DNA of 64,000 nt, from the IMG/VR virus record IMGVR_UViG_3300029922_000042, positions 21,672 to 85,671 of that record; one strand, written 5' to 3'. The notes under the pieces are model-generated. The model was given only the letters and a program-made list of their open reading frames with translations. It had not been told where the DNA came from and ran no database searches. Position 1 is the first letter of the stretch. Each line of letters begins with the position of its first letter. Below, one piece after another: positions 11,585 to 60,421 of this stretch. This stretch comes from a virus. The translations under genes were made by a program, and so were the position numbers.

Positions 11585-12131
11585 AAATTCGAATACTGCT
11601 TTAATAGAGGAATTTTGCTATGAATTTGCTAAACAATGTAATTATGTGCTTACTAAGAGTTTAAAAAGCCAGTTATATAATCCAGTTAGTAAAGCATTGG
11701 CTATTAGTAGAGAGTTAGAGGTAGAGCCAAAAGTCTATGTAGCAGCTCATGTCTATTTCTCTCCTTTATTAAAAGGTTATACTAAACTGACTCCAAATCA
11801 GCTGTATACTAGAGATTCCAAGACTTATGTTGAAGAATATCTTAAATTTGACAGACATATAGATAGAGAGTTTGAGACTCAATGTAGAATATTGGCTGAA
11901 TGCCTGGATAATGGCTGGAAAGAAAGATTAGCTTTATTAAATTCTACTTTAGACTTTTTACCCTGGTTTAGAGTATTAATATCTACGGAAAGAGATGAAG
12001 AAATTATTAGAGTATATAGTGATGTAGCTACTAATATGTTAAGAAATGATAAACCTCTGCTAAACTATCTTAAGACAATTAAATCAGATAGTGGTCAGGG
12101 ATTGGATTTTTCAAGGTTACCTAGATTATGA
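11574..12131 (+). CDS. Unknown replication-block protein
   Basis: 185 residues, mostly helical, no cysteine-rich or nucleotide-binding motif seen. It lies between primase and replicative helicase with overlaps on both sides. A helicase loader or primase accessory role would fit the position but rests on context alone. Confidence 0.6.
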   Translation: MYIENSNTALIEEFCYEFAKQCNYVLTKSLKSQLYNPVSKALAISRELEVEPKVYVAAHVYFSPLLKGYTKLTPNQLYTRDSKTYVEEYLKFDRHIDREFETQCRILAECLDNGWKERLALLNSTLDFLPWFRVLISTERDEEIIRVYSDVATNMLRNDKPLLNYLKTIKSDSGQGLDFSRLPRL

Positions 12132-14539
12132 ATGATACAAATTTTACTGAGCCTTTAACCGATGCTGATTTTTCGGAATTGTTGATTAGGCATATGCTAT
12201 TATCTCCGGAAGTGAGTAATAAAGCTAAACAATTGAATATTGTAGGAGATGATTTAGTATTGGATGATACTTATGGTAATCAAGTATATAAAGAGCTGGT
12301 AAATATCATTAATAGTATAGATGTTAGACCAGTGCCAGCTAATACATTGTTGGATGGCTTAAAACATAAATTTGAGGATGGAACTTTAATTGATAGTTTA
12401 AAAGATAATACACTTGAACTATTTGAGTACTTCTATAATGCAGATAGGTTGTTGGAGAGTCCTGAGTTCTTTGATAGTAGATTGTTACCTTTCCTAAAGA
12501 ATAGGAGGGCACAGAAGCTTATTAATAAGTATAGGGATGATGTTCATACCTTAACCAGTGAATTAAATAAACTCAATTTAGATTTGGCTGGCGATTCTCC
12601 TATGAGCAGGCCTAGGGTGATGAATCCTTTTAGTAGTATCATATTCAAGACTAAGAGTAGTATGATAGGTACAGGTTTAAGTAAGCTGGATGAGAAGTTG
12701 GATGGTGGACTATTATCTAGTGAATATGCTATGTTGCTAGGATTTTCAGGTGGGGGTAAATGTCATGGAAAAGGTACTAAAATATTAATGTATGACGGTT
12801 CAATAAAGAATGTTGAAGATATTAAAGTGGGTGAATTACTAATGGGTAATGATTCAACATCTAGAGAAGTACTTAGTTTGGCTAGGGGTAGTGAGCAAAT
12901 GTATAAGGTAATTCCTGTTAAGGGGGAACCTTGGACTTGTAATGAATCTCATATCCTTAGTTTAGTATGTAATACTCAATGTGGTTTTGGTTATCAATAT
13001 GGTAAGGGAAATATAGTTAATATGACAGTTAAGGATTATTGTGCTCTAATAAGAACTAAGAAAGATTGTCTTAAATTATATCGAATTGGTGTTGATTATC
13101 CTGTTAAACCTTTGAATATGGACCCGTATATCTTCGGTTGTTGGATAGGAGATGGAACACGAGCAGCACCGAAGATTACAAATACTGATCCAGAAATTAT
13201 TAGTGTAATGATGGAATGGGCTAAAATCAATAAATATAAGGTCAGACAGTATGATATTACTTATTGTTTTAGTAGAAAACCTGAAATAAATATATTTCGT
13301 AATGAAATAAAAAGAGCTAATGGTAATAATCAAAAGAGAATTCCTAGTGATTATTTGATTAACTCTGAAAGTAATAGGTTGCAGTTATTAGCTGGTATTA
13401 TAGATACTGATGGATATCTACATCATAACTTTTATGAAGTTGTAACTAAGTATGAAGGTTTGAGTCAAGATATTCTTTATTTAGCTAGAAGTTTAGGGTT
13501 CGCAGCATATAGTTATCCTAAAATAGCTACTATGAAAAGAGAGGATGGATCAATATACAGATGTAAAGTATATAGAGTTAATATAAGTGGACACGTAAAT
13601 AAAATTCCATGTAAAGTTATTAGAAAGCGGGCTGGGATAAGACAGCAGATTAAAGATGTATTACATGTTGGTTTTACTGTTGAGCCTATAAACGATAGAG
13701 ATTATTATGGTTTTGAATTATCAGGTAATCATCTTTATCTTTTGGGGGATTTTACAGTAACACATAATACAGCTGTAGGTACTAATATGGTGGGTATATC
13801 TGCGGAAATGGGTAGAAAGGCGGTTTATATATCTTGTGAAGAGCATGAAGATGATTTAAGCCAAAGATTCTATTCCAGAGTATTTAGAATACCATATAGA
13901 CAATTAAGACAAGGTAGTGCTAATATAGAATTGGAATCAAAGTTTAATGAAGAATTAACTACTGAGAAAATAAAATTTTTAAAAGATAATCTCTGTTTAA
14001 TGGGTTTAAAGGGGATTGATGGTGCTATAACTCCTAATCTGCTATATGAATTGTTAAAACAAAACTATGAAGAAACTGGTTTTATACCAGAACTAGTAAT
14101 GCTAGATCAATTACAATTCATAACTCCAGATGCACCTATAAGAAAGAATATGCAGACTTATGAGATTGAAGGTATGACTGCAGCTGAGTTAGACCAATTA
14201 TCACATAAACAAATAGGTGGTAAAGGATTTGTATTGTGGGTACAGCATCAAGCTAAAGGCAAGACTAGGGCATATTTTACTATAGATGAAATTCAAGGTT
14301 ATAAAGCAATAGTAAATAAGCCAGACTTGGTTTTAGGTGTAGGCAGAGCTGGTGATAAAAGTGATGAGATAAACTTGTTTCCTTTAAAAATAAGACATTC
14401 AGCTGACTTTAAAATAACTCTTAAGACTGAATTTGAATATATGACAGTAACATCCACGTTAGTTACTAATGACTTACCATATCAAAATTCTACCATGACA
14501 GAAGTAGATCGTACTGGTATTAGACCAGTCACTTATTAA
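12128..14539 (+). CDS. Replicative DNA helicase, DnaB type, interrupted by an intein
   Basis: 803 residues before splicing, about 467 after. An N-terminal helical domain (about 1-150) precedes the RecA-type ATPase core. Walker A is split: SGGGK (about 207-211), then a 336-residue intein (212-547), then Thr548. Downstream, the core continues with VYISCEEHEDDL, Walker B ELVMLDQLQF (about 655) and WVQHQAKG. Without splicing the P-loop is destroyed, so activity should depend on intein removal. Stands with primase and polymerase as the replisome. Confidence 0.93.
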   Translation: MNDTNFTEPLTDADFSELLIRHMLLSPEVSNKAKQLNIVGDDLVLDDTYGNQVYKELVNIINSIDVRPVPANTLLDGLKHKFEDGTLIDSLKDNTLELFEYFYNADRLLESPEFFDSRLLPFLKNRRAQKLINKYRDDVHTLTSELNKLNLDLAGDSPMSRPRVMNPFSSIIFKTKSSMIGTGLSKLDEKLDGGLLSSEYAMLLGFSGGGKCHGKGTKILMYDGSIKNVEDIKVGELLMGNDSTSREVLSLARGSEQMYKVIPVKGEPWTCNESHILSLVCNTQCGFGYQYGKGNIVNMTVKDYCALIRTKKDCLKLYRIGVDYPVKPLNMDPYIFGCWIGDGTRAAPKITNTDPEIISVMMEWAKINKYKVRQYDITYCFSRKPEINIFRNEIKRANGNNQKRIPSDYLINSESNRLQLLAGIIDTDGYLHHNFYEVVTKYEGLSQDILYLARSLGFAAYSYPKIATMKREDGSIYRCKVYRVNISGHVNKIPCKVIRKRAGIRQQIKDVLHVGFTVEPINDRDYYGFELSGNHLYLLGDFTVTHNTAVGTNMVGISAEMGRKAVYISCEEHEDDLSQRFYSRVFRIPYRQLRQGSANIELESKFNEELTTEKIKFLKDNLCLMGLKGIDGAITPNLLYELLKQNYEETGFIPELVMLDQLQFITPDAPIRKNMQTYEIEGMTAAELDQLSHKQIGGKGFVLWVQHQAKGKTRAYFTIDEIQGYKAIVNKPDLVLGVGRAGDKSDEINLFPLKIRHSADFKITLKTEFEYMTVTSTLVTNDLPYQNSTMTEVDRTGIRPVTY
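12761..13768 (+). mobile_element. Intein with LAGLIDADG endonuclease in the helicase P-loop
   Basis: The in-frame insertion begins with Cys (CHGKGTKILMYDG, block A) and ends with THN followed by Thr, standard splice-junction residues for a Cys-start intein. A TxxH-like block B is present as CNESHILS. Two LAGLIDADG-type helices, YIFGCWIGDGT and LLAGIIDTDGYL, indicate a DOD homing endonuclease. The insertion point, between Lys and Thr of GGGKT, is a classic intein site because it is the most conserved spot in the gene. Confidence 0.93.
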
Positions 14540-21588: not shown

Positions 21589-21891
21589 ATGAACAAGACT
21601 GATACTAAACCTATTATCGTTAAAATCAAGATTCTGGACCAAACTGGACACACTACTTTGGAACAGGCTATTGATGATGCAATCAAGACCGCTTTTACCT
21701 ATAATTTTACAAATGGTAAGAACATTAATGTACGTGGTGAAAACGGAGTAGTTCCTTTTGAACTATTCGCCAAGGATATTAATGATACGGAAGGATTGCT
21801 CAGTGATACGATTAGACTCCATAAAGCTCTCACTCAATTCGAAGACCCTTTAATTTTCATTACTGGTGCTTTGGCTGGTGGAGCGAACTAA
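21589..21891 (+). CDS. Candidate ubiquitin-like protein ending Gly-Gly-Ala-Asn
   Basis: 100 residues. A beta-strand-like start (KPIIVKIKILDQTG), an alpha-helical stretch (LEQAIDDAIKTAFTYNF) and a terminal strand PLIFITGALAGGAN are consistent with a beta-grasp ubiquitin-like fold. The Gly97-Gly98 pair followed by two residues is what a precursor trimmed by a JAB peptidase would look like. A JAB gene (24280) and an E1-like gene (25052) lie in the operon just downstream. The fold call is inference; a hairpin separates it from that operon, so it may be made at a higher level. Confidence 0.5.
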   Translation: MNKTDTKPIIVKIKILDQTGHTTLEQAIDDAIKTAFTYNFTNGKNINVRGENGVVPFELFAKDINDTEGLLSDTIRLHKALTQFEDPLIFITGALAGGAN

Positions 21892-32752: not shown

Positions 32753-33025
32753 ATGATTGCTGATATTTATGCTTTTTCTAGAGATGGATTTAGACATGAT
32801 ACTTTTCAAAATTTTTTAAACGGTGATTTTCATGGTGTGTTTCAGTTTGACCGGTCTACTATACCACCATATAATCTGTTTAAAGTATCAATCAATTTAG
32901 ATGATTATGATATAAGTTGTGGACCTGGTGTTGTATATAATCATACTGTCTTACATTTTAGAAAGAAAACTATAAACTCCAGACCTGCAGAAAGTGGTGA
33001 ACGGAGGCTTGAACCTTATTTATGA
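32753..33025 (+). CDS. Small protein with shared C-terminal tail
   Basis: 90 residues starting MIADIYAFSRDGFRHD, aromatic-rich; the end is ESGERRLEPYL, a member of the tail family. It begins 9 nt after tRNA-Glu and overlaps the next start by 4 nt. First gene of the 32.7-35.4 kb tail-bearing array. Confidence 0.7.
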   Translation: MIADIYAFSRDGFRHDTFQNFLNGDFHGVFQFDRSTIPPYNLFKVSINLDDYDISCGPGVVYNHTVLHFRKKTINSRPAESGERRLEPYL

Positions 33026-33291
33026 ATGAATATATAGTAGGAGATGAAGTTTCTGTAACTCTTAATTCTGGTAATCGAGTTAAAGCAAAGATTATAAGTA
33101 TTGATAATGACGAGCTTGCACTAAAGTTTGTAGAGTATACAGAGCTTGTAAACATTGATGCAAGCGGTGGTTCAAGCGGTGGTTCAGGCGGTTGGCCTAC
33201 TATTCATAGACACATAAATGAGGTAATCTCTTTAGTATCTAAAACTAGAAAAGAAAATCCTTTTGATAGGAAACTGGAGTTTGATTTATGA
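33022..33291 (+). CDS. Small VGD barrel-like protein with shared tail
   Basis: 89 residues. MNEYIVGDEVSVTLNSGNRVKAKIISID looks like an SH3/KOW-type small beta barrel (VGD followed by alternating hydrophobics). A Ser/Gly repeat (ASGGSSGGSGG, about 49-59) precedes the C-terminal NPFDRKLEFDL tail. Related by eye to the genes at 54660, 54880, 55118, 55887, 56126, 56377 and 57792. Confidence 0.7.
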   Translation: MNEYIVGDEVSVTLNSGNRVKAKIISIDNDELALKFVEYTELVNIDASGGSSGGSGGWPTIHRHINEVISLVSKTRKENPFDRKLEFDL

Positions 33292-35820: not shown

Positions 35821-36810
35821 TTACGAAACATTTTTATGCAAGTGTAATTCAATGGTAGAATGAGGCTCCTCCAAAGCTTTAATGGGCGTTCGACTCGCCT
35901 CACTTGCTTGTAATTGTTTAATTAATAAATTAGGTTCTTTTACTATTTCCTCCCAATTACCACCATATTTTTTAGTCTTAATGATAACTAGATTTGGCAC
36001 TTTAGCTGTTTTCATTTTGTACTCTGCTTCTTTAGTAATATATCCTTTCAATTCAACGAAAATATTGTTTAAAATAAAGTCAGGATAGTAATTGCGGGAT
36101 TTACCGTCTAACGTAGTATAAGGAAATCCTTTTAAGTTTCTAGAATAAGATAGATTTAATTGTTCGGCTATTTTGCAAAAATTATATTCCATAGTTGACT
36201 GACAGTGTATTATTGTACCATCTTTTTTGGTATAGTCTGAGTGTTTACCCCAACCTCCACCTTTACGAGGGCCTCCGGTTTTACCTTTCAATACTTTTGA
36301 TTGCAGTAACTTATAACAAGCTGAAGAACATGTTGACTTTCTGCAGTGTGTTTTAAATGGGTTAAGACATATTATACATATTTTATTCACTATTTTAACG
36401 ACTTGTCCATTTTTATATCTAAAACGAGGAATACCGTCGTTTTCGTAACGATTTTTTAATGCTAAACTTATGTTCATATTTTTAGTTTTAATTTGTTTTG
36501 TTGTTAGATGACTATTCCTATATTTAGCGCTGCAAGACTTATTGCAAAAATTTAGTTTTGTTCGTTTGATTTCCTTCTGTAATTTATATCTTGTTTTTCC
36601 ACACTGAGCACAAGTTACAAGTTTTGCAGCATTAGGTTTGCATTGTTTTGAACAATAATCGGACACACGACAACTAAGTTTATTTGCAATCTGACGTTGC
36701 ACTTCATTTTTATTTTTGTAGTATGTTTTATGACAATTACAACATTCTAAAGGTATAAGATCTCTAGAACCACAAGTGTCAAATATAGCTTGTAACATCA
36801 ATATCTTCAT
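35821..36810 (-). CDS. Zinc-finger PD-(D/E)XK-type homing endonuclease
   Basis: About 329 residues on the reverse strand, ATG at 36810 (GTG 36834 possible). At least four CxxC-based zinc-finger-like units in the N-terminal 180 residues (ECCNCHKTYY, TCAQCGK, CIICLNPF, each followed by a second Cys pair). Then a nuclease core: STMEYNFCKIAEQL, YYPDFIL and VELKGY (Glu, Asp, Glu-x-Lys), as in free-standing Vsr/PD-(D/E)XK homing endonucleases. It is the only sizeable gene on this strand. Its 3' end lies over the tRNA-Gly gene on the + strand, so the last about 30 residues are antisense tRNA. Confidence 0.8.
   Translation of the reverse strand: MKILMLQAIFDTCGSRDLIPLECCNCHKTYYKNKNEVQRQIANKLSCRVSDYCSKQCKPNAAKLVTCAQCGKTRYKLQKEIKRTKLNFCNKSCSAKYRNSHLTTKQIKTKNMNISLALKNRYENDGIPRFRYKNGQVVKIVNKICIICLNPFKTHCRKSTCSSACYKLLQSKVLKGKTGGPRKGGGWGKHSDYTKKDGTIIHCQSTMEYNFCKIAEQLNLSYSRNLKGFPYTTLDGKSRNYYPDFILNNIFVELKGYITKEAEYKMKTAKVPNLVIIKTKKYGGNWEEIVKEPNLLIKQLQASEASRTPIKALEEPHSTIELHLHKNVS
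35838..35908 (+). tRNA. tRNA-Gly(TCC)
   Basis: Perfect acceptor GCAAGTG/CACTTGC, discriminator T, anticodon stem AGGCT/AGCTT with loop CCTCCAA, T arm GGGCG/CGCCT-like. CCA is not encoded. The gene overlaps the 3' end of the reverse-strand endonuclease gene. Confidence 0.85.
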
Positions 36811-36857
36811 ATGAGTTATATTACCACTATCCACTCCAAACTAGCAACAACGATTAT

Positions 36858-44184: not shown

Positions 44185-44496
44185 ATGCCTACAAAAATAC
44201 AAGATTGTAAAGGTTTATCTGTTTGTATTAATAATCATGTCTTCAAATCTAATGAGGTTAGATTAATACCATTTAGTGCTGCTGAAAAAGAATGTAAATG
44301 TGTTCTTTATACTGATAGTGACTATGTTATAAAAAGACGAGAGCCAGTAGATCTAGAATTTCCTGGATTTTTATTAGCTTGTCCAGTCTGTAATGTTATT
44401 CAGATAGACGGTTTTAGAAATGCCCCTACTAATTCAACACCAATAAAAGGTGTTGATAATACAATACCTGAGAGGAGATTAGAAATAGATTTATGA
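44185..44496 (+). CDS. Cys-containing small protein with shared tail
   Basis: 103 residues. Cysteines in KIQDCKGLSVCIN, KECKCVLY and LACPVCNVIQ could make a zinc site. It ends TIPERRLEIDL, a tail-family member. Overlaps the next gene by 4 nt. Confidence 0.65.
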   Translation: MPTKIQDCKGLSVCINNHVFKSNEVRLIPFSAAEKECKCVLYTDSDYVIKRREPVDLEFPGFLLACPVCNVIQIDGFRNAPTNSTPIKGVDNTIPERRLEIDL

Positions 44497-52181: not shown

Positions 52182-52226
52182 TTCTACATAATAGTGATTT
52201 AATAATCGAAGACTAGACCCTTTCTT

Positions 52227-52634
52227 ATGACAATAACAAAAATAGCTAATAGATGGTATGACGAAAACAATAATAGCTGGTTATCAGAAGAAGCAGCTAC
52301 TCAATACTCACTTACCCTAACTAATTGTAGTAGGTGTAGTGATTGTAGTAATTGTATTGATTGTAGAGATTGTAGTAATTGGTGTAGTAATTGTAATAAT
52401 TGTAGAGATTGTAGTTATTGTATATATTGTAGTGATTGTAGTTATTGTATATATTGTATTGATTGTAATATTTGTAGTGATTGTAGTAGTTGTATTAATT
52501 GTAGTAATTGTAGTGATTGTAGAGATTGTAGTAGTTGTATTGATTGTAGTGATTGTACTAATAATAAGAAGTATGAACCAGTAACTAGACCATTTATAGA
52601 CTGTACTAACAGACTATTAGAACCAGATTTATGA
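52227..52634 (+). CDS. Cys-x-x triplet-repeat protein, copy 9
   Basis: 135 residues. Cap NRWYDENNNSWLSEEAAT, about 26 triplets with one four-residue unit (CSNWC) that shifts phase, C-terminal TRPFIDCTNRLLEPDL. The final 92 nt (52543-52634) are identical to the end of copy 10 at 53513-53604. Confidence 0.88.
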   Translation: MTITKIANRWYDENNNSWLSEEAATQYSLTLTNCSRCSDCSNCIDCRDCSNWCSNCNNCRDCSYCIYCSDCSYCIYCIDCNICSDCSSCINCSNCSDCRDCSSCIDCSDCTNNKKYEPVTRPFIDCTNRLLEPDL

Positions 52635-52879
52635 CAAATATCACAGTACGAGATAAATATGACCAATCTATAGAAGTAGGAAATAATGTTATAGTAAAGT
52701 ATTATGGCAGTATTTATAAAGGAACTGTCATTAATATTAAACTAATAAATAGTACTGGGACTAGTACCAGTGATTTTTGTGCTCATTTAAGAGATTATTG
52801 GATTAAAGTTATCATCCATTCACCTATTAGAGGAGATAAAGAGATAACTAGTAAATCAGGAGAAATAATAAGAATATGA
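52631..52879 (+). CDS. Barrel-like small protein without tail
   Basis: 82 residues; DQSIEVGNNVIVKYYGSIYKGTVINIKL has the VGxxV pattern of the small barrel family seen at 33022 and 54-58 kb. Unlike its relatives it ends GEIIRI with no shared tail. ATGA overlaps on both sides. Confidence 0.6.
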   Translation: MTNITVRDKYDQSIEVGNNVIVKYYGSIYKGTVINIKLINSTGTSTSDFCAHLRDYWIKVIIHSPIRGDKEITSKSGEIIRI

Positions 52880-53148
52880 AATATAATCTAGTTCAAATTC
52901 GTAGTCATATAAAGAATCAACTTCGTGTTTCCTTTGAAGAAATTGAAATAGAAGGTGAAGTAATAGAAATCAGTTCACCAATGAATACTGGATTTTATTA
53001 TTGCCTGGCTAAAAGAGGCAAGAAATATGCTTTTGATAGATTAAAGAAACATTTAATAAAAATGTATGATAAAGAAATTACAAAGATAACAAAAGAGTTA
53101 GACATGCTTAAAGCCGTAGAATATCCACATCGAAAAATAAGACATTAA
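52876..53148 (+). CDS. Unknown small protein
   Basis: 90 residues, N-terminal beta-rich part (QLRVSFEEIEIEGEVIEIS) and a basic helical C-terminus. Just beyond its stop, 53147-53175 holds a leftover tail-like coding remnant (reads as NDRKLEPDL in another frame), suggesting a deleted tail-bearing gene. Function unknown. Confidence 0.55.
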   Translation: MKYNLVQIRSHIKNQLRVSFEEIEIEGEVIEISSPMNTGFYYCLAKRGKKYAFDRLKKHLIKMYDKEITKITKELDMLKAVEYPHRKIRH

Positions 53149-53172
53149 TGATAGAAAGTTGGAACCAGACTT

Positions 53173-53604
53173 ATGACAATAACAAAAAGAGCTGATAGAT
53201 GGTATGACGAAAACGGTAATAGTTGGATAACTGAAGAACTAGCTACTACTGACTCTCCTACCCTAACTAATTGTTATAATTGTAGAGGTTGTAGTAATTG
53301 TAGAGATTGTAGTTATTGTATATATTGTAGTGATTGTAGTAATTGTATTAGTTGTATTAGTTGTAGTGATTGTAGTAATTGTAGTAATTGTTATAGTTGT
53401 ATTGATTGTAGTAATTGTAGTGATTGTTATAGTTGTAGAGATTGTAGTAGTTGTATTGATTGTAGTAGTTGTAGTGGTTGTAGAGATTGTAGTAATTGTA
53501 ATAATTGTATTTATTGTAGTGATTGTACTAATAATAAGAAGTATGAACCAGTAACTAGACCATTTATAGACTGTACTAACAGACTATTAGAACCAGATTT
53601 ATGA
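53173..53604 (+). CDS. Cys-x-x triplet-repeat protein, copy 10
   Basis: 143 residues. Cap DRWYDENGNSWITEELAT, about 29 uninterrupted triplets, C-terminal TRPFIDCTNRLLEPDL as in copy 9. Its start overlaps a tail-like remnant (LEPDL frame followed by ATGA) that belongs to no intact gene. Confidence 0.88.
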   Translation: MTITKRADRWYDENGNSWITEELATTDSPTLTNCYNCRGCSNCRDCSYCIYCSDCSNCISCISCSDCSNCSNCYSCIDCSNCSDCYSCRDCSSCIDCSSCSGCRDCSNCNNCIYCSDCTNNKKYEPVTRPFIDCTNRLLEPDL

Positions 53605-54446
53605 AAGCACATTGGATCATAGAAAATTTTACAGATTCGGAGGATTACAGGGATTTAATTAAAGCAGTAAAAGATTTAGGCAAGGAATGCTTTGTAATAG
53701 ATAAACGTAATCATTTTGATTTTAATCCTGCCTCATTTGTGGAAAATGAATGTGTAATAGTTCAAGGGTCAATTCAAATGGTTAAGAATATAGAATCTAG
53801 GTTACCTAAAAATTGCTTTCCCATCAAATATTGCACCTTCAACAATTATCTTTGCTCGGTTTACTATCCTAAATTAAAAGACTTCCTATTTAATGATAAG
53901 TATGTATTACTTCCGCTAAAAGAACTTAAAGAGAATAAGTTTGATTATTATCAGAAGTTTGGAAAAGAAGCACTTATATTTGTAAGACCGGATAGTGGAG
54001 AAAAGACATTTCAAGCCCAACTCTTAGATTTGCAGGATTTCGACAGATTTTGGACTAACTCTATAGCTTCCAGTACTTTAGATGATGATTTAGTACTAGT
54101 TTCTACGCCTAAAGATATAATAGGTGAGTGGCGTTTTATATGTTCAAAGTATAACGATGGGGAAATCATAACTCAATCTACTTATCGATATCAAGGCAAG
54201 TTATGTTATATACCTGCTGCACCTGTTAAAGCAACTGAACTTTGTAAAAATATATTAAAGGTTCAATATTACCCAGACTCTGTTTTTTGCATAGATATCT
54301 GCCAGGCTGGGGATAACAAGTTCTATTTATTAGAATTAACCTCCTTTTCTAGTGCTGGTCTATATGCTACCGATAAAAAGAAGATAGCAACTAGAGTAAG
54401 TGAAATAACCGAATTTGAATATGGAAGAGAAATATTCTATAGGTGA
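53601..54446 (+). CDS. ATP-grasp-domain protein
   Basis: 281 residues. LIFVRPDSGEKTF (about 122-134), IGEWRFICSKY (about 174-184) and DICQAGDNKFYLLELTSFSSAG (about 232-253) follow the ATP-grasp order, close to DUF4343-type phage proteins. ATP-grasp enzymes ligate carboxylates to amines or thiols; substrate here is unknown. Overlaps the Cys-repeat gene before it and the small barrel gene after it. Confidence 0.7.
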   Translation: MKAHWIIENFTDSEDYRDLIKAVKDLGKECFVIDKRNHFDFNPASFVENECVIVQGSIQMVKNIESRLPKNCFPIKYCTFNNYLCSVYYPKLKDFLFNDKYVLLPLKELKENKFDYYQKFGKEALIFVRPDSGEKTFQAQLLDLQDFDRFWTNSIASSTLDDDLVLVSTPKDIIGEWRFICSKYNDGEIITQSTYRYQGKLCYIPAAPVKATELCKNILKVQYYPDSVFCIDICQAGDNKFYLLELTSFSSAGLYATDKKKIATRVSEITEFEYGREIFYR

Positions 54447-54663
54447 TCTTGTTGAATTATTAAATTTAGGTGAAGGGGAGATCGTCTCTATAAAAAACAC
54501 TTATTATCATATGAGAATGTTGAATCATGTATCTATTGGTAAACGTGATTTAGATCCGGGAGATATACTTAATGTGTGGCCTGACGAAATAGTAAAAAAG
54601 ATAGTAATTCTAAGACCTGATTATAGTAACTTAGATGAAAGAAGAATTGATATTGAATTATGA
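54421..54663 (+). CDS. Small IGD barrel-like protein with shared tail
   Basis: About 80 residues from ATG 54421 (an in-frame ATG at 54415 is also possible). MEEKYSIGDLVELLNLGEGEIVSI is barrel-like; it ends NLDERRIDIEL, a tail variant with Ile in place of Leu. Overlaps the ATP-grasp gene by 26 nt. Confidence 0.65.
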   Translation: MEEKYSIGDLVELLNLGEGEIVSIKNTYYHMRMLNHVSIGKRDLDPGDILNVWPDEIVKKIVILRPDYSNLDERRIDIEL

Positions 54664-54908
54664 ATGATTATAAGGTAGGTGATGTGATTGAGGCTTTTTA
54701 TGTAGCATCTATTTATTGTACAGGTAAAATAGTAGAATTTAAGTTTAAGGGAGTTCTCATACGTATACTAGAAGACATGAATTACAATGATATAATATGT
54801 TATCCTAGTAATACACAGTTATTTCTCCCATTTGAAAATATCATAGGGTTTAGTCAACTTATTAGAACAGAAAACATATATGAACGAAACCTTGACCCAT
54901 ATTTATAA
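54660..54908 (+). CDS. Small VGD barrel-like protein with shared tail
   Basis: 82 residues; MNDYKVGDVIEAFYVASIYCTGKI, ending NIYERNLDPYL. The DNA for the tail also encodes the first residues of the next protein in another frame (ATG 54880), a 29-nt dual-coding overlap. Confidence 0.68.
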   Translation: MNDYKVGDVIEAFYVASIYCTGKIVEFKFKGVLIRILEDMNYNDIICYPSNTQLFLPFENIIGFSQLIRTENIYERNLDPYL

Positions 54909-55146
54909 TATAGGTGATGAAGTTAGTGGGAATTATGCACAATTAGCTGAGTTTAAAGGATTTATAGTATCATATAAATTTTATTTCAATAAACCTTGGT
55001 ATTATGTACAGCTAACTGAACGCATATTTATACACAAAGAATTACCTATAGGTTGGATCATAGCTGTTTCAGAGATGGAAATTAAGGAAGTTAAAAAATT
55101 AAGAAAAGAAAACATATATGAGCGAAACCTTGACCCATATTTATAA
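54880..55146 (+). CDS. Small IGD barrel-like protein starting in the previous tail
   Basis: 88 residues starting MNETLTHIYNIGDEVSGNY and ending NIYERNLDPYL. The start lies 29 nt inside the previous gene, so its first nine codons are read from the same DNA as the previous C-terminal tail. The next gene repeats the trick, pointing to tandem duplication of the unit. Confidence 0.65.
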   Translation: MNETLTHIYNIGDEVSGNYAQLAEFKGFIVSYKFYFNKPWYYVQLTERIFIHKELPIGWIIAVSEMEIKEVKKLRKENIYERNLDPYL

Positions 55147-55336
55147 TATAGGTGATGAGGTGGCATTTTATAGAGGTACTCATAGGTTTGAAGGTAGAAT
55201 AATAAATAGCGCAGCATTTCATGATCATTGGTGTGTTCAATTATTGAACTCTAAATTTATGTCAGTACATAAACAATGTTGTAATAAAATTAGAAAAGAA
55301 AATCCTTTAGATAGGAAACTAGAGCTTGATTTATGA
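55118..55336 (+). CDS. Small IGD barrel-like protein, second tail-overlapping copy
   Basis: 72 residues starting MSETLTHIYNIGDEVAFYRG, ending NPLDRKLELDL. The first 15 residues match those of the gene at 54880 at 14 positions, but the body differs. Again starts 29 nt within the previous gene. Confidence 0.65.
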   Translation: MSETLTHIYNIGDEVAFYRGTHRFEGRIINSAAFHDHWCVQLLNSKFMSVHKQCCNKIRKENPLDRKLELDL

Positions 55337-55890
55337 CAATAACTAAAAGAGATAATAGATGGTTTGACGAAAACAATAATAGCTGGGATAGTGAAGAAGA
55401 AGCTACTCTATACTCACCTACCCTAACCGATTGTACTAGTTGTTTTAATTGTTATAGTTGTATTGATTGTAGTAGTTGTATTGATTGTAGAGATTGTAGT
55501 AGTTGTATTGATTGTAGTAATTGTAGAGATTGTACTAGTTGTGATAGTTGTAGTGGTTGCATTGATTGTAGTGGTTGTGTTGATTGTAGAGATTGTAGTG
55601 GTTGTAGTGGTTGTATTTATTGTATATATTGTAGTGATTGTAGTGAGTGTTATGGATGTAGAGATTGTAGTAATTGTAGTAATTGTTATAGTTGTATTGA
55701 TTGTAGTAATTGTAGTGATTGTAGAGATTGTAATAATTGTAGAGATTGTAGTAGTTGTATTGATTGTAGAGATTGTAGTTATTGTAGTAGTTGTATTGGT
55801 TGTAATGACTGGACTAATAACATGAAATATGAACCGGTAATTAGACCATTTATAGACTGTACTAACAGACTATTAGAACCAGACTTATGA
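55333..55890 (+). CDS. Cys-x-x triplet-repeat protein, copy 11 (longest)
   Basis: 185 residues. Cap NRWFDENNNSWDSEEEAT, about 42 uninterrupted Cys triplets (residues about 32-158), the largest repeat of the fourteen, then the PFIDCTNRLLEPDL end. If the repeat forms an extended structure its length scales with triplet number, so this copy would be about 3.5 times as long as the one at 57472. Confidence 0.88.
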   Translation: MTITKRDNRWFDENNNSWDSEEEATLYSPTLTDCTSCFNCYSCIDCSSCIDCRDCSSCIDCSNCRDCTSCDSCSGCIDCSGCVDCRDCSGCSGCIYCIYCSDCSECYGCRDCSNCSNCYSCIDCSNCSDCRDCNNCRDCSSCIDCRDCSYCSSCIGCNDWTNNMKYEPVIRPFIDCTNRLLEPDL

Positions 55891-56129
55891 CACAAAAGGA
55901 ATATAAAGTAGGAGATGTGGTTGATTTTGAGGTTAGTAATTTGAAAGGAATAGGAACTATAACACCATATAATGGAGACATAATGTATGCTGTAATTATA
56001 GAGGAATTTCCCGGTATACCTAGTAGAACTAAATGGCATATATTTCCTGATGAAATAACAGGTATACATGTTGAACCTAGAATAGAATTTGACATCACAA
56101 AAGATAGAAGATTAGAGTTAGAACTATGA
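55887..56129 (+). CDS. Small VGD barrel-like protein with shared tail
   Basis: 80 residues; MTQKEYKVGDVVDFEVSNLKGIGTI and the P..TKWHIFPDEI stretch, ending ITKDRRLELEL. Coupled by 4-nt overlaps to the Cys-repeat gene before it and the barrel gene after it. Confidence 0.68.
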   Translation: MTQKEYKVGDVVDFEVSNLKGIGTITPYNGDIMYAVIIEEFPGIPSRTKWHIFPDEITGIHVEPRIEFDITKDRRLELEL

Positions 56130-56380
56130 ATGAATTTGAAGAAGGAATGAAAGTTATAGTTACTTTTTATAGCGGTAATAAAGCTGTAGGAATAATAATA
56201 TGGTATGCTGATGATACTTCCTATGAAGTTGAAGTCTTGCATTATACAGAAATTAATGATAAAGAGAAAACGGTGGAGACATTTCCAAATCCTTATAGTA
56301 ACATTAACTTCATAAATACCGAAGCAATACCAAGTAGAACAGAGAATCCTTTTGATAGAAAATTGGAACCAGATCTATGA
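56126..56380 (+). CDS. Small barrel-like protein with shared tail
   Basis: 84 residues; MNEFEEGMKVIVTFYSGNKAVGIII (EGM in place of VGD) and VEVLHYTEIND resemble the gene at 33022 (VKFVEYTEL). It ends NPFDRKLEPDL, identical in style to 33022's NPFDRKLEFDL. Coupled by ATGA on both sides. Confidence 0.68.
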   Translation: MNEFEEGMKVIVTFYSGNKAVGIIIWYADDTSYEVEVLHYTEINDKEKTVETFPNPYSNINFINTEAIPSRTENPFDRKLEPDL

Positions 56381-56628
56381 GTGAATATAAAGTAGGAGAT
56401 GTTGTAGTTTATTGGTCTATTAGTTCTAACTCAGAGGCAGTTGCTAAGATAGTCGAAACCGATTGGACTAGTTTTAATTATTTAAGGGTAATTATAATAA
56501 AACATGATCATCTTAGTGCAGGTACATCAATTTATTTAACAGAGAGTGAAATAATAAGATTGGACGGTCCCATTATAAAACACTGTTTTGATATTATGTT
56601 AGATAGAAGATTAGATTTGGAACTATAA
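56377..56628 (+). CDS. Small VGD barrel-like protein with shared tail
   Basis: 83 residues; MSEYKVGDVVVYWSISSNSEAVAKI, ending IMLDRRLDLEL. Last gene of this run; a 132-nt non-coding, pyrimidine-rich gap follows. Confidence 0.68.
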   Translation: MSEYKVGDVVVYWSISSNSEAVAKIVETDWTSFNYLRVIIIKHDHLSAGTSIYLTESEIIRLDGPIIKHCFDIMLDRRLDLEL

Positions 56629-56760
56629 GTAACTGTTTTACCTTATATACCACATTCTCTACTCCAATCTACCACTCTCTCCCCATAATCCTCCCCATCA
56701 CTCACAATTTCAACTACTTACGAAACTTGTATTAACTCTATATAATAACTTTCCAACTAT
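56629..56760 (+). promoter_or_regulatory. Non-coding C/T-rich leader, possible promoter region
   Basis: 132 nt without a frame, rich in CTCTCC/CCCC runs on the + strand and ending in TATATAATAACT before ATG 56761. The change in composition and the TATA-like element suggest a promoter for the 56.8-60 kb genes; no exact element can be fixed. Confidence 0.35.
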
Positions 56761-57027
56761 ATGAATCCTAAAGTAGAACTAATAAAAATAAACAAAATCC
56801 CAATTAGTATAGGTGTGGATAAATACGTATTCCCTATTAAAAATAGTATAGTACATCATAACCAAGACTCACTACTAGGCTCTACTATAGTATCAGATCC
56901 AGGTTATAGTGTATTAGGATTTCGCCGTGACCCTAAAGCTCTATCCAACCATAATCTAGCCTTTGAACTAGCAGAACTAGCCTGGAAAATACAAGAATTT
57001 GATCTTATATATGAAAACACTAGCTAA
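56761..57027 (+). CDS. Unknown small protein
   Basis: 88 residues starting MNPKVELIKINKIPISIG; beta-rich N-terminus and helical end (AFELAELAWKIQEFDLIY). Function unknown. Overlaps the next gene by 17 nt. Confidence 0.6.
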   Translation: MNPKVELIKINKIPISIGVDKYVFPIKNSIVHHNQDSLLGSTIVSDPGYSVLGFRRDPKALSNHNLAFELAELAWKIQEFDLIYENTS

Positions 57028-57244
57028 CTACCTCAATGACCCGGATAATGACTTAACTGTTGAACTTGATGCTGAATTATTAAAGAAGATTCAACTAGAT
57101 ACTCTTTATAGTCTATTAATTAAGAGTACTGAAGCCTTAAATCTGCCTGCTATCTCTAAGGAGCATACTGATATAATGGTAATTCATTTAATCCTTAATG
57201 AAATAGAACTTTTGAAATATGGATTCAACATTAAAGAAGTGTAA
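57011..57244 (+). CDS. Small acidic helical protein
   Basis: 77 residues from ATG 57011 (TTG 56999 also possible); MKTLANYLNDPDNDLTVELDAELL. Helical. Function unknown. Confidence 0.6.
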   Translation: MKTLANYLNDPDNDLTVELDAELLKKIQLDTLYSLLIKSTEALNLPAISKEHTDIMVIHLILNEIELLKYGFNIKEV

Positions 57245-57267
57245 GAAACTAATAACCTGGGCTGAGC

Positions 57268-57468
57268 ATGAAATTAAAGATTGAATACTTGAAACTACTA
57301 TATAAAAGAGTACTTAACTGTATATACTATGCTTGTTTGACTGACCAATACTTAAGTTGTATAGTACTAATTATAGTTTATCCTATATCTCTTATTATAG
57401 TGAATCTATATAACAAAGTTGTAATTAAAGATAGTAAACCTAATTGTTGGAATGATTTTTTCTTCTAA
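57268..57468 (+). CDS. Small membrane protein
   Basis: 66 residues with a strongly hydrophobic segment CIVLIIVYPISLIIVNLY (about 31-48) and a basic N-terminus. Probably a single-span inner-membrane protein. A Cys-repeat gene starts 3 nt after its stop. Confidence 0.6.
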   Translation: MKLKIEYLKLLYKRVLNCIYYACLTDQYLSCIVLIIVYPISLIIVNLYNKVVIKDSKPNCWNDFFF

Positions 57469-57471
57469 GAT

Positions 57472-57795
57472 ATGACAATAACAAAAAGAGCTGATAGATG
57501 GTATGACGAACGAGGTAATAGTTGGTTATCAGAAGAATTAGCTACTTTATACTCACCTACCTTAACTAATTGTAGTTATTGTGATGATTGTAGTAATTGT
57601 AGAAATTGTAGTAGTTGTAGTAATTGTAGTAGTTGTAGAGATTGTATTAGTTGTTATGATTGTAACGATTGTAAATATGTCTGTTGCCTGACAGACAGAA
57701 CAAGATTTACTGCTCAATTCGAACCTGCTACAGAAGATACTATAATAAGACCTGAACTTGACATTAATAATAGAAGACTTGAAATTGAACTATGA
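57472..57795 (+). CDS. Cys-x-x triplet-repeat protein, copy 12 (shortest)
   Basis: 107 residues. Cap DRWYDERGNSWLSEELAT, only about 12 Cys triplets, then CKYVCCLTDRTRFTAQFEP and tail DINNRRLEIEL. The C-terminal ending EDTIIRPELDINNRRLEIEL is shared with the copy at 59112. Confidence 0.87.
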   Translation: MTITKRADRWYDERGNSWLSEELATLYSPTLTNCSYCDDCSNCRNCSSCSNCSSCRDCISCYDCNDCKYVCCLTDRTRFTAQFEPATEDTIIRPELDINNRRLEIEL

Positions 57796-58058
57796 ATGAA
57801 TTTAATATAGGTGACATTATTTCTGTAACATTTACTTTTTCTGGTAATCAAGCTATTGGTGTTGTAATTGACGATGATAATTTTATGATCACGTCTTATA
57901 CTAAAGTACTTAAACCAGACTATGTAGTTAAAGGTTTATCAGACCGTGAACCTCTTTATGGATGTAATATAAGGAATATTCAACTAGTATCACGGAGTAT
58001 TAGACAAGAAGTTAGACAAGAAGACCCATTTTCCCGTAACCTAGACCCATATCTATGA
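57792..58058 (+). CDS. Small IGD barrel-like protein with shared tail
   Basis: 88 residues; MNEFNIGDIISVTFTFSGNQAIGVVI, ending DPFSRNLDPYL. Close to the genes at 33022 and 56126 (NEF/NEY start, SGN, NPF/DPF end). ATGA overlaps. Confidence 0.68.
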   Translation: MNEFNIGDIISVTFTFSGNQAIGVVIDDDNFMITSYTKVLKPDYVVKGLSDREPLYGCNIRNIQLVSRSIRQEVRQEDPFSRNLDPYL

Positions 58059-59115: not shown

Positions 59116-59444
59116 AACTAACAAAACGAGAAAATGATAGATTCTATGATGAAAACAATAATAGTTGGATAACAGAACAACTAGCTACTGTATATTCACC
59201 TACGCTGATTAATTGTAGATATTGTAGTGATTGTAGTAATTGTAGTAATTGTAGTAGTTGTATTAGTTGTTATATATGTGTTAATTGTAGTAATTGTAGT
59301 GAGTGTTATAGATGTAGAGATTGTATTAGTTTGTATAGACATTACAACGAAGAAAAATTAAAACCTCAGAAGTATGACACTGAAGATACTATAATAAGAC
59401 CTGAACTTGACATTAATAATAGAAGACTTGAAATTGAACTATGA
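59112..59444 (+). CDS. Cys-x-x triplet-repeat protein, copy 13
   Basis: 110 residues. Cap DRFYDENNNSWITEQLAT (Phe replaces the usual Trp), about 13 Cys triplets, then a C-terminal domain ending DINNRRLEIEL. Directly precedes the AAA ATPase gene with ATGA overlap. Confidence 0.87.
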   Translation: MKLTKRENDRFYDENNNSWITEQLATVYSPTLINCRYCSDCSNCSNCSSCISCYICVNCSNCSECYRCRDCISLYRHYNEEKLKPQKYDTEDTIIRPELDINNRRLEIEL

Positions 59445-60421
59445 CCACCAATAATTTAGAAGAATTTGGTACTAAACTACCAGAACATACAGCTAAATCT
59501 AATCAGATTATGATACCTGATGCTATCCTTTATGCTGCACCAGAAGAAATCAATGTAGCTAATGGATCAGCTCAAACTCCTACTCAATGGACGGAGCCAG
59601 TTTCAGGAATGTTTTTATCCACACCTGAAACAATTAAGAAGTTACCGTCTAATGTATATAAGTATGTAGCTTATTCAGATAATAAATGGGGTTTTCTGAA
59701 AGTTAATATCAATGTTGACGAACTACTATTACTACCTGATAGTACTTCAGATCTAGTACTTCAAGAGATTCAAACCTTTCTAGACAATGCGGAAACCTTT
59801 AAATACTATGATGTATTGCATAGAAGAGGGTTCTTATTCTATGGTCCAGCAGGTTCAGGCAAGACTTGCTTAGTACAACAAATCATTAAGAAGGTGATTG
59901 ACCAGAATGGAGTGATTTTGCTTTGTGATAACCCACAAGCTATCGAACTAGGTTTAAGAGACCTTAGAGCAGTTGAGCCAGATAGATTCATAGTTTGTCT
60001 ATTCGAAGATATTGATGCCTTGATTCAGAGATATGGAGAGAAGGAGATTCTTGCTATATTAGATGGTGAAAGTCAAATCAACAAAGTCTTGAATATAGGA
60101 ACAACTAATTACCCTGAAGTATTGGATAGGAGAATCATTAGACCTCGTAGATTTGATATGGTGATTAAGATTGACTGGCCTAGTGAAGCAGTTAGACGAC
60201 ATTATTTTAAGAATAAGCTTAAGATTGATGACAAAGAACTGGGTAAGTGGGTTAACGCCACGGATAAGTTCTCCTTCGCTGCTTGTGCTGAGTTGATGAT
60301 TAGTGTTAAATGTCTGGGTAAGGATTTTGAGAAAGCAGTGGAACATTTACGTGAATTAATGAAACATAAACCAGATAGCCGGGATTTTAACAGCCCTGCA
60401 GACTTTAATATAGGACATTAG
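59441..60421 (+). CDS. Bcs1-like AAA+ ATPase
   Basis: 326 residues. Walker A GPAGSGKT (135-142), Walker B VCLFEDIDAL (about 184-193), sensor 1 LNIGTTNYPEVL and arginine finger region RRIIRPRRFD. The N-terminal 130 residues form a substrate or oligomer domain (VYKYVAYSDNKWGFLKVNI). In this family a hexameric ring remodels proteins. It is the second AAA+ of the window and is translationally coupled to a Cys-repeat gene. Confidence 0.85.
   Translation: MTTNNLEEFGTKLPEHTAKSNQIMIPDAILYAAPEEINVANGSAQTPTQWTEPVSGMFLSTPETIKKLPSNVYKYVAYSDNKWGFLKVNINVDELLLLPDSTSDLVLQEIQTFLDNAETFKYYDVLHRRGFLFYGPAGSGKTCLVQQIIKKVIDQNGVILLCDNPQAIELGLRDLRAVEPDRFIVCLFEDIDALIQRYGEKEILAILDGESQINKVLNIGTTNYPEVLDRRIIRPRRFDMVIKIDWPSEAVRRHYFKNKLKIDDKELGKWVNATDKFSFAACAELMISVKCLGKDFEKAVEHLRELMKHKPDSRDFNSPADFNIGH

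Follow-up and report, generated by a model that had tools for sequence, protein, structure and literature searches.

A shared C-terminal peptide on a recombining array of small barrel-like proteins: a candidate docking tag in a large contractile-tailed phage

Introduction

The internal proteins (IPs) of phage T4 are divergent small proteins delivered by a ten-residue N-terminal capsid targeting sequence (CTS), and their bodies are replaced in related phages (PMC9026906). Some T4-type internal proteins counter host restriction (PMC9026906). Here, we describe an arrangement that recalls them in a 64,000-nucleotide stretch of viral DNA, referred to below as the window (positions 21,672 to 85,671 of the IMG/VR record IMGVR_UViG_3300029922_000042). 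Between 52227 and 58058, the window carries an array of small genes, which we call VGD genes after a VGD or IGD motif near the N-terminus of their products, interspersed with genes for Cys-repeat proteins; many of these products end in the same short peptide, here called the tail or tag.

As with IPI, IPII and IPIII of T4 and their CTS, one short terminal peptide is common to divergent, small and variable accessory proteins. The window differs from T4 in that the signal is strictly C-terminal rather than N-terminal, is found on about 47 genes and has an unrelated sequence. We regard the T4 internal proteins as the closest working analogue, in a functional analogy that would not imply membership. 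The predicted fold of the VGD proteins is like that of KOW/NusG/L21e, Tudor and PWWP domains and of the small SH3 proteins of jumbo phages (PMC7824862). The barrel fold itself is of a known kind; what sets the window apart from known SH3-like barrels is the tandem array of tagged single domains, with no Pfam KOW or Tudor match. The interspersed Cys genes belong by sequence to the phrog_15341 Cys-repeat proteins, from which they differ in mostly ending in the tag. In having small, hypervariable, dense accessory genes close to tRNAs, the locus is also like phage anti-defence and host-takeover islands, from which it differs in the added common tag and in that no known anti-defence gene was recognised in it; a putative anti-defence function of the array is possible. 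C-terminal sorting in phages at such a scale was not found in the literature searched, most subscription journals lying outside the search.

Results

The shared tail has the eight-residue consensus [DEN]R.L[ED][PLIF][DEY]L, followed directly by the stop codon. The window's open reading frames (ORFs) of 50 codons or more number 148 on the plus strand and 168 on the minus strand; this pattern ends 30 of the former and 0 of the latter, and it occurs at 0 internal positions. Ahead of the tail, R.[ED] is present in 43 of 63 distinct ends, as against 5.8% of control 16-mers. When 51 distinct tails are compared, codon position 2 is almost invariant and position 3 is variable, the Arg at −7 being written with 5 codons and the Leu at −5 with up to six. 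Because of this near-invariance of position 2 next to a variable position 3, the tail is, as judged from its codons, selected as a peptide and not as DNA.

The carriers of the tail fall into 21 blast clusters, namely one of Cys proteins, 10 of VGD proteins, which are too divergent for pairwise blast, and 10 unrelated to either. The "two-family cassette" of the first-pass annotation was, accordingly, too narrow, as the tail is also borne genome-wide by many more unrelated families of small proteins. Among the proteins listed, none of the 43 with a tail reaches 200 aa, versus 17 of the 67 encoded by untailed genes of the same regions (p = 1e-4), a bias made up in part of non-independent cases, Cys genes being predominant among the tagged ones. 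The tag is absent from the listed structural and replication proteins of the virus. Scanning IMG/VR with a 27-base tag pattern gave 16 stretches, each of them on a contig of this virus group, and the same pattern gave a single match in GTDB genomes, a chance 40-codon frame. The tag thus appears confined to this phage lineage, and was not found outside it in these two scans.

Two observations may be set beside these counts. A 328-aa protein encoded at 1118–2104 ends in TRRLDFDEL, one residue away from the tag, which may be a variant or a matter of chance. The tagged gene at 44185–44496 has a counterpart in a relative (L014:1064-1252) that is without the C-terminal part and the tag, the alignment breaking at 44371–44412.

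The window lies within an 85.7 kb virus record (G000) with 15 tRNA genes and 33% G+C. Contig 3300031261_000032 of IMG/VR equals this record over the 20.4 kb compared, with no differences; a replicative-helicase-like gene is 100% identical between the record and the 151 kb record 3300030508_000015, which in turn overlaps 3300028572_000010 at 100%. On account of these overlaps, we treat these records as probable parts of a single virus exceeding 200 kb. The pieces encode tail-sheath, terminase, tail-fibre, head-maturation-protease-like and RNA polymerase beta-like proteins, and from this gene content the virus is a contractile-tailed bacteriophage. About 47 tagged genes are found in it: the window has 30 of them, the left part of 3300028572_000010 has 16, and one more is in 3300030508_000015.

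The ORFs named by the first-pass annotation are present in the window's ORF list where it placed them. It had counted eight tail-bearing VGD genes; tail and family are borne out, and the count is nine, since 56126 and 56377 are two genes. All nine are on the plus strand. One stands at a separate locus (33022–33291, tail DRKLEFDL) and differs in loop length from its counterpart in the relative (89 vs 97 aa). The others are 54421–54663 (ERRIDIEL), for which an SH3-like barrel model was obtained; 54660–54908 (ERNLDPYL), assigned by held-out profile; 54880–55146 (tail present) and 55118–55336 (DRKLELDL), each starting in a dual-coding overlap; and four that are common to the window and its close relative, 55887–56129 (DRRLELEL), 56126–56380 (DRKLEPDL), 56377–56628 (DRRLDLEL) and 57792–58058 (SRNLDPYL). 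This close relative is 3300037172_000055 (coordinates given as L014), whose flanks are 97–98% identical to the window.

Homology within the family was assessed after cutting the tails, each member being left out in turn and searched with a profile built from the remaining members, with 442 decoy ORFs. These profiles find 13 of the 15 members from window and relative at E values of 3e-4 to 3e-10, the best decoys scoring 0.007–0.2. Since the recovery is made by tail-free, held-out profiles, it is confirmed at the level of sequence that the homology of most VGD genes extends outside the N-terminal motif and the tail. One gene of the relative, L014:9210, was missed by its held-out profile (E 3.1). 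The tail-less gene at 52631–52879 (plus strand) had been proposed as a further relative, and the profile gives this no support (E 7.8, best decoy 0.043); only the short pattern links it to the family. That pattern, M(N/S)E(Y/F).(V/I)GD, had been ascribed to all the members, and it does fit 33022, 56377, 57792 and L014:9479 strictly, while the remaining members are looser. Searches of Pfam, PHROG and PADLOC for a function of the VGD proteins gave no match above cut-off. Between window and relative, the shared tailed genes have 5 synonymous and 18 nonsynonymous changes, few in number, with pN and pS (nonsynonymous and synonymous) both about 0.012. At 33022–33291, compared with L019:6064-6357, a Gly/Ser-rich loop differs by eight codons, and the aligned codons have 6 nonsynonymous and 0 synonymous changes.

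The proposal of an SH3/KOW/Tudor-like barrel gains support from the one member modelled with confidence. The tail-less body of 54421, modelled with 13 aligned bodies, has a pLDDT of 91 and a pTM of 0.75. The model is a five-stranded small barrel in which a short helical turn (HHH) precedes the final strand. Its Foldseek neighbours are ribosomal L21e, PWWP, NdhS, KOW and the PcrA Tudor domain, together with many small uncharacterised phage proteins (TM up to 0.74); TM values are 0.57–0.74 overall, at E ≥0.01 (none <0.001), as one expects of 60-residue barrels. For 33022, modelled at full length, confidence is low (pLDDT 58), and the top structural matches are SMN Tudor, LSm and Spt5 KOW. Among curated KOW, Tudor and other SH3 profiles of Pfam, none scored above the gathering score, the best being PUA_4 for 33022 (E 0.002). 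It is likely, as far as these models go, that the other VGD homologues share the SH3-like fold. An insert of T4 gp18 that matched the VGD profile (E 6e-4) was rejected as a sequence relative; the match is a short beta-barrel motif and gives a hint of fold only.

The content of the array differs between close phages, as the first-pass annotation had supposed. Positions 52200–55331 of the window (3.1 kb) correspond to L014:8606-9999 (1.4 kb) in the relative, and the block is exchanged while the flanks stay 97–98% identical. The window block holds a Cys gene, 52631, 52876, a second Cys gene, an R2K ATP-grasp gene and four VGD genes; that of the relative holds five other tailed VGD genes. At the left border of the window block is what we read as a deletion scar (52182–52230, plus strand), where the left flank is joined through the 13-nt repeat ATAATAG[G/T]GATTT to an orphan tail, NNRRLDPFL-stop (52201–52230), whose body is absent and whose gene is intact in the relative as its fifth VGD gene (L014:9717-10004). 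The order across the scar is left flank, ATAATAGTGATTT, AATAATCGAAGACTAGACCCTTTCTTATGA, the last encoding NNRRLDPFL-stop. In the relative, ATAATAGGGATTT is at the flank and ATAATAGTGATTT stands immediately ahead of the NNRRLDPFL tail. Because ATAATAGTGATTT and the orphan tail stand together at the scar as they do in the relative, whose flank has ATAATAGGGATTT, the state of the window lineage is best explained, from sequence, by deletion of the relative's five VGD genes between copies of the 13-nt near-repeat. The Cys gene of the relative looks like a recombinant of the window Cys genes, which suggests that the relative in turn lost the window's block, a step whose direction is not polarised. 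The other tagged array is also unlike in gene content between its two strains. The array had been said to expand; the sole change with polarity is the deletion of a block.

The order of genes in the window array is Cys, 52631, 52876, Cys, ATP-grasp, four VGD, Cys, three VGD, two other genes, Cys, VGD. VGD and Cys genes are thus interspersed, and not strictly alternating as first described. Nor does coupling by ATGA, which had been extended to all the genes, hold throughout: nine overlaps are of this 4-bp kind, two are of 29 bp (54880 and 55118), one is of 26 bp (54421) and the rest are gaps. The starts of 54880 and 55118 sit within the tail of the gene before, so that the 29-bp DNA encodes both ..YERNLDPYL-stop and M(N/S)ETLTHIYNIGD; a dual-coding block of this type is found again in the relative.

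The remaining genes of the array are likewise on the plus strand. Cys-repeat genes lie at 52227–52634 (tail NRLLEPDL), 53173–53604 and 55333–55890 (both tailed, the latter at the right border of the block exchanged in the relative) and, from the ORF list, at 57472–57795 (NRRLEIEL). These proteins, with Cys at every third residue, make up the largest tagged family, which is phrog_15341-like and has about a dozen more members besides the first three genes. Untagged Cys copies with other C-terminal parts occur on related contigs (L015:2444-2977, L041:558-1091 and L049:1104-1529). The small gene at 52876–53148 has no tail and no significant family match. Inside the variable block, 53601–54446 encodes an untailed, peptide-ligase-like ATP-grasp protein of the R2K clade. 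This protein was considered as an enzyme that reads the tag, in a system of the RiPP (ribosomally synthesised and post-translationally modified peptide) or C-terminal peptide-ligase kind, and rejected: among the records examined for companions of tagged genes, which are fragments, its gene is only in G000, and tagged genes are also in G001, G003, G006 and G007. Of the VGD, Cys and ATP-grasp proteins that were run through PADLOC, a search for defence systems, none gave a match. An AAA ATPase is encoded at 59441–60421, following a tagged Cys gene; it is IetA-like in PADLOC (E 4e-12), and its closest phage relatives, at 37% identity, are on huge uncultured phages.

Elsewhere in the window, the DnaB-like helicase (12128–14539) contains an intein with a homing endonuclease, and a similar segment is found in a terminase/helicase-like protein (L085:1105-3960). 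At 35821–36834, in a region otherwise of plus-strand genes, a large minus-strand ORF overlaps tRNA-Gly (35838–35908).

Discussion

We propose that the locus is a recombining array of tagged small SH3-like barrels, in which the tag is a common docking or targeting signal on a changeable pool of effectors; we put the probability of this reading at about one half. We are slightly more confident of the general statement, that a previously undescribed C-terminal peptide code sends some 47 small proteins of more than a dozen unrelated families to one destination, the pool being refreshed by block deletion or swap. Each divergent barrel body would probably bind a different partner, be it a host or phage protein or a nucleic acid. 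The docking or targeting tag would be the peptide at the C-terminus, which reads R.[ED], a short spacer and [DEN]R.L[ED][PLIF][DEY]L-COOH. Since Cys-repeat proteins and many further, unrelated small proteins encoded by the genome carry this tag as well, one receptor, presumably phage-encoded, would collect the whole pool. Turnover would proceed by block loss or exchange at short repeated junctions, consisting of tail end, ATGA and next gene start, and at the starts of Cys genes. The docking role of the tag, its destination and the effector roles of the bodies are what we infer from these patterns.

Several points weigh against this proposal. The receptor is presumed only, and docking is argued from sequence. 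The bias in size is partly non-independent, as noted, and the models cover two members only (54421 and 33022), one of them at low confidence. The tagged genes are located in accessory regions rich in tRNAs, distant from the virion genes, and k-mer promoter classes and a sigma-70 scan link them to no late-expression class. The VGD bodies are neutral to acidic (charge 0 to −8), whereas T4 internal proteins are basic.

Where would the tag lead? The single most likely destination, tentative as it is, would be the phage head. Under such a scheme, similar to IPI and its CTS in T4 but with the signal at the C-terminus, the small proteins would be packed in the prohead, ejected with the DNA and act on the host at once. 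A short common signal on divergent small bodies is what this would look like, and the tagged proteins are all under 200 aa, like the T4 internal proteins of 8–20 kDa (PMC9026906). T4 relatives exchange internal protein bodies behind CTS-like sequences (PMC9026906), and the present phage encodes a head-maturation-protease-like protein and is contractile-tailed. The T4 CTS, however, is N-terminal and cleaved, while here the tag is C-terminal and cleavage is not in evidence, and both the charge of the bodies and the position of the tagged genes outside the virion genes speak against head loading.

Almost equal in standing, and also doubtful on its own, is docking on a hub inside the cell, such as a multi-subunit phage RNA polymerase, a clamp or a replication compartment, for which the barrels would be NusG/KOW-like or adaptor modules. 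Their fold neighbours are indeed KOW/Tudor/NusG-like, and RNA polymerase beta-like subunits are encoded by the phage. We also take the spacing L.[LIP].L in the tag to be loosely like that of clamp-binding hexapeptides, although few other proteins match a clamp-type motif and the replication proteins are without the tag. About 47 clients would, moreover, be many for a single hub.

That the tag is instead a degron or stability signal, setting the lifetime of early accessory proteins, seems improbable to us. It is strictly C-terminal with a hydrophobic end, and the AAA ATPase gene at 59441 adjoins a tagged gene, but of the records examined only G000 and G001 have that gene, and, to our knowledge, known C-degrons need less than a long charged consensus with an R.[ED] extension. 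Least probable is that DNA processes gave rise to the tag as a by-product, a sequence serving recombination or translation coupling and copied between gene ends, as the common short sequences and dual-coding overlaps of the junctions and the deletions running through junction repeats might have suggested; tags also precede TAA and TAG stops and occur without overlaps, and the codon-position pattern with its many synonymous codons speaks against a DNA-level element.

Should the tag be an address label, as in the docking proposal, it would give a list, readable from sequence, of the effectors of a giant phage, most of which are otherwise invisible to annotation. The peptide would then also be a handle for catching its receptor. 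The pair of phages described here, about 98% alike in the flanks and different in their barrels, would in turn offer a natural experiment that could tell, host by host, which effectors are important.

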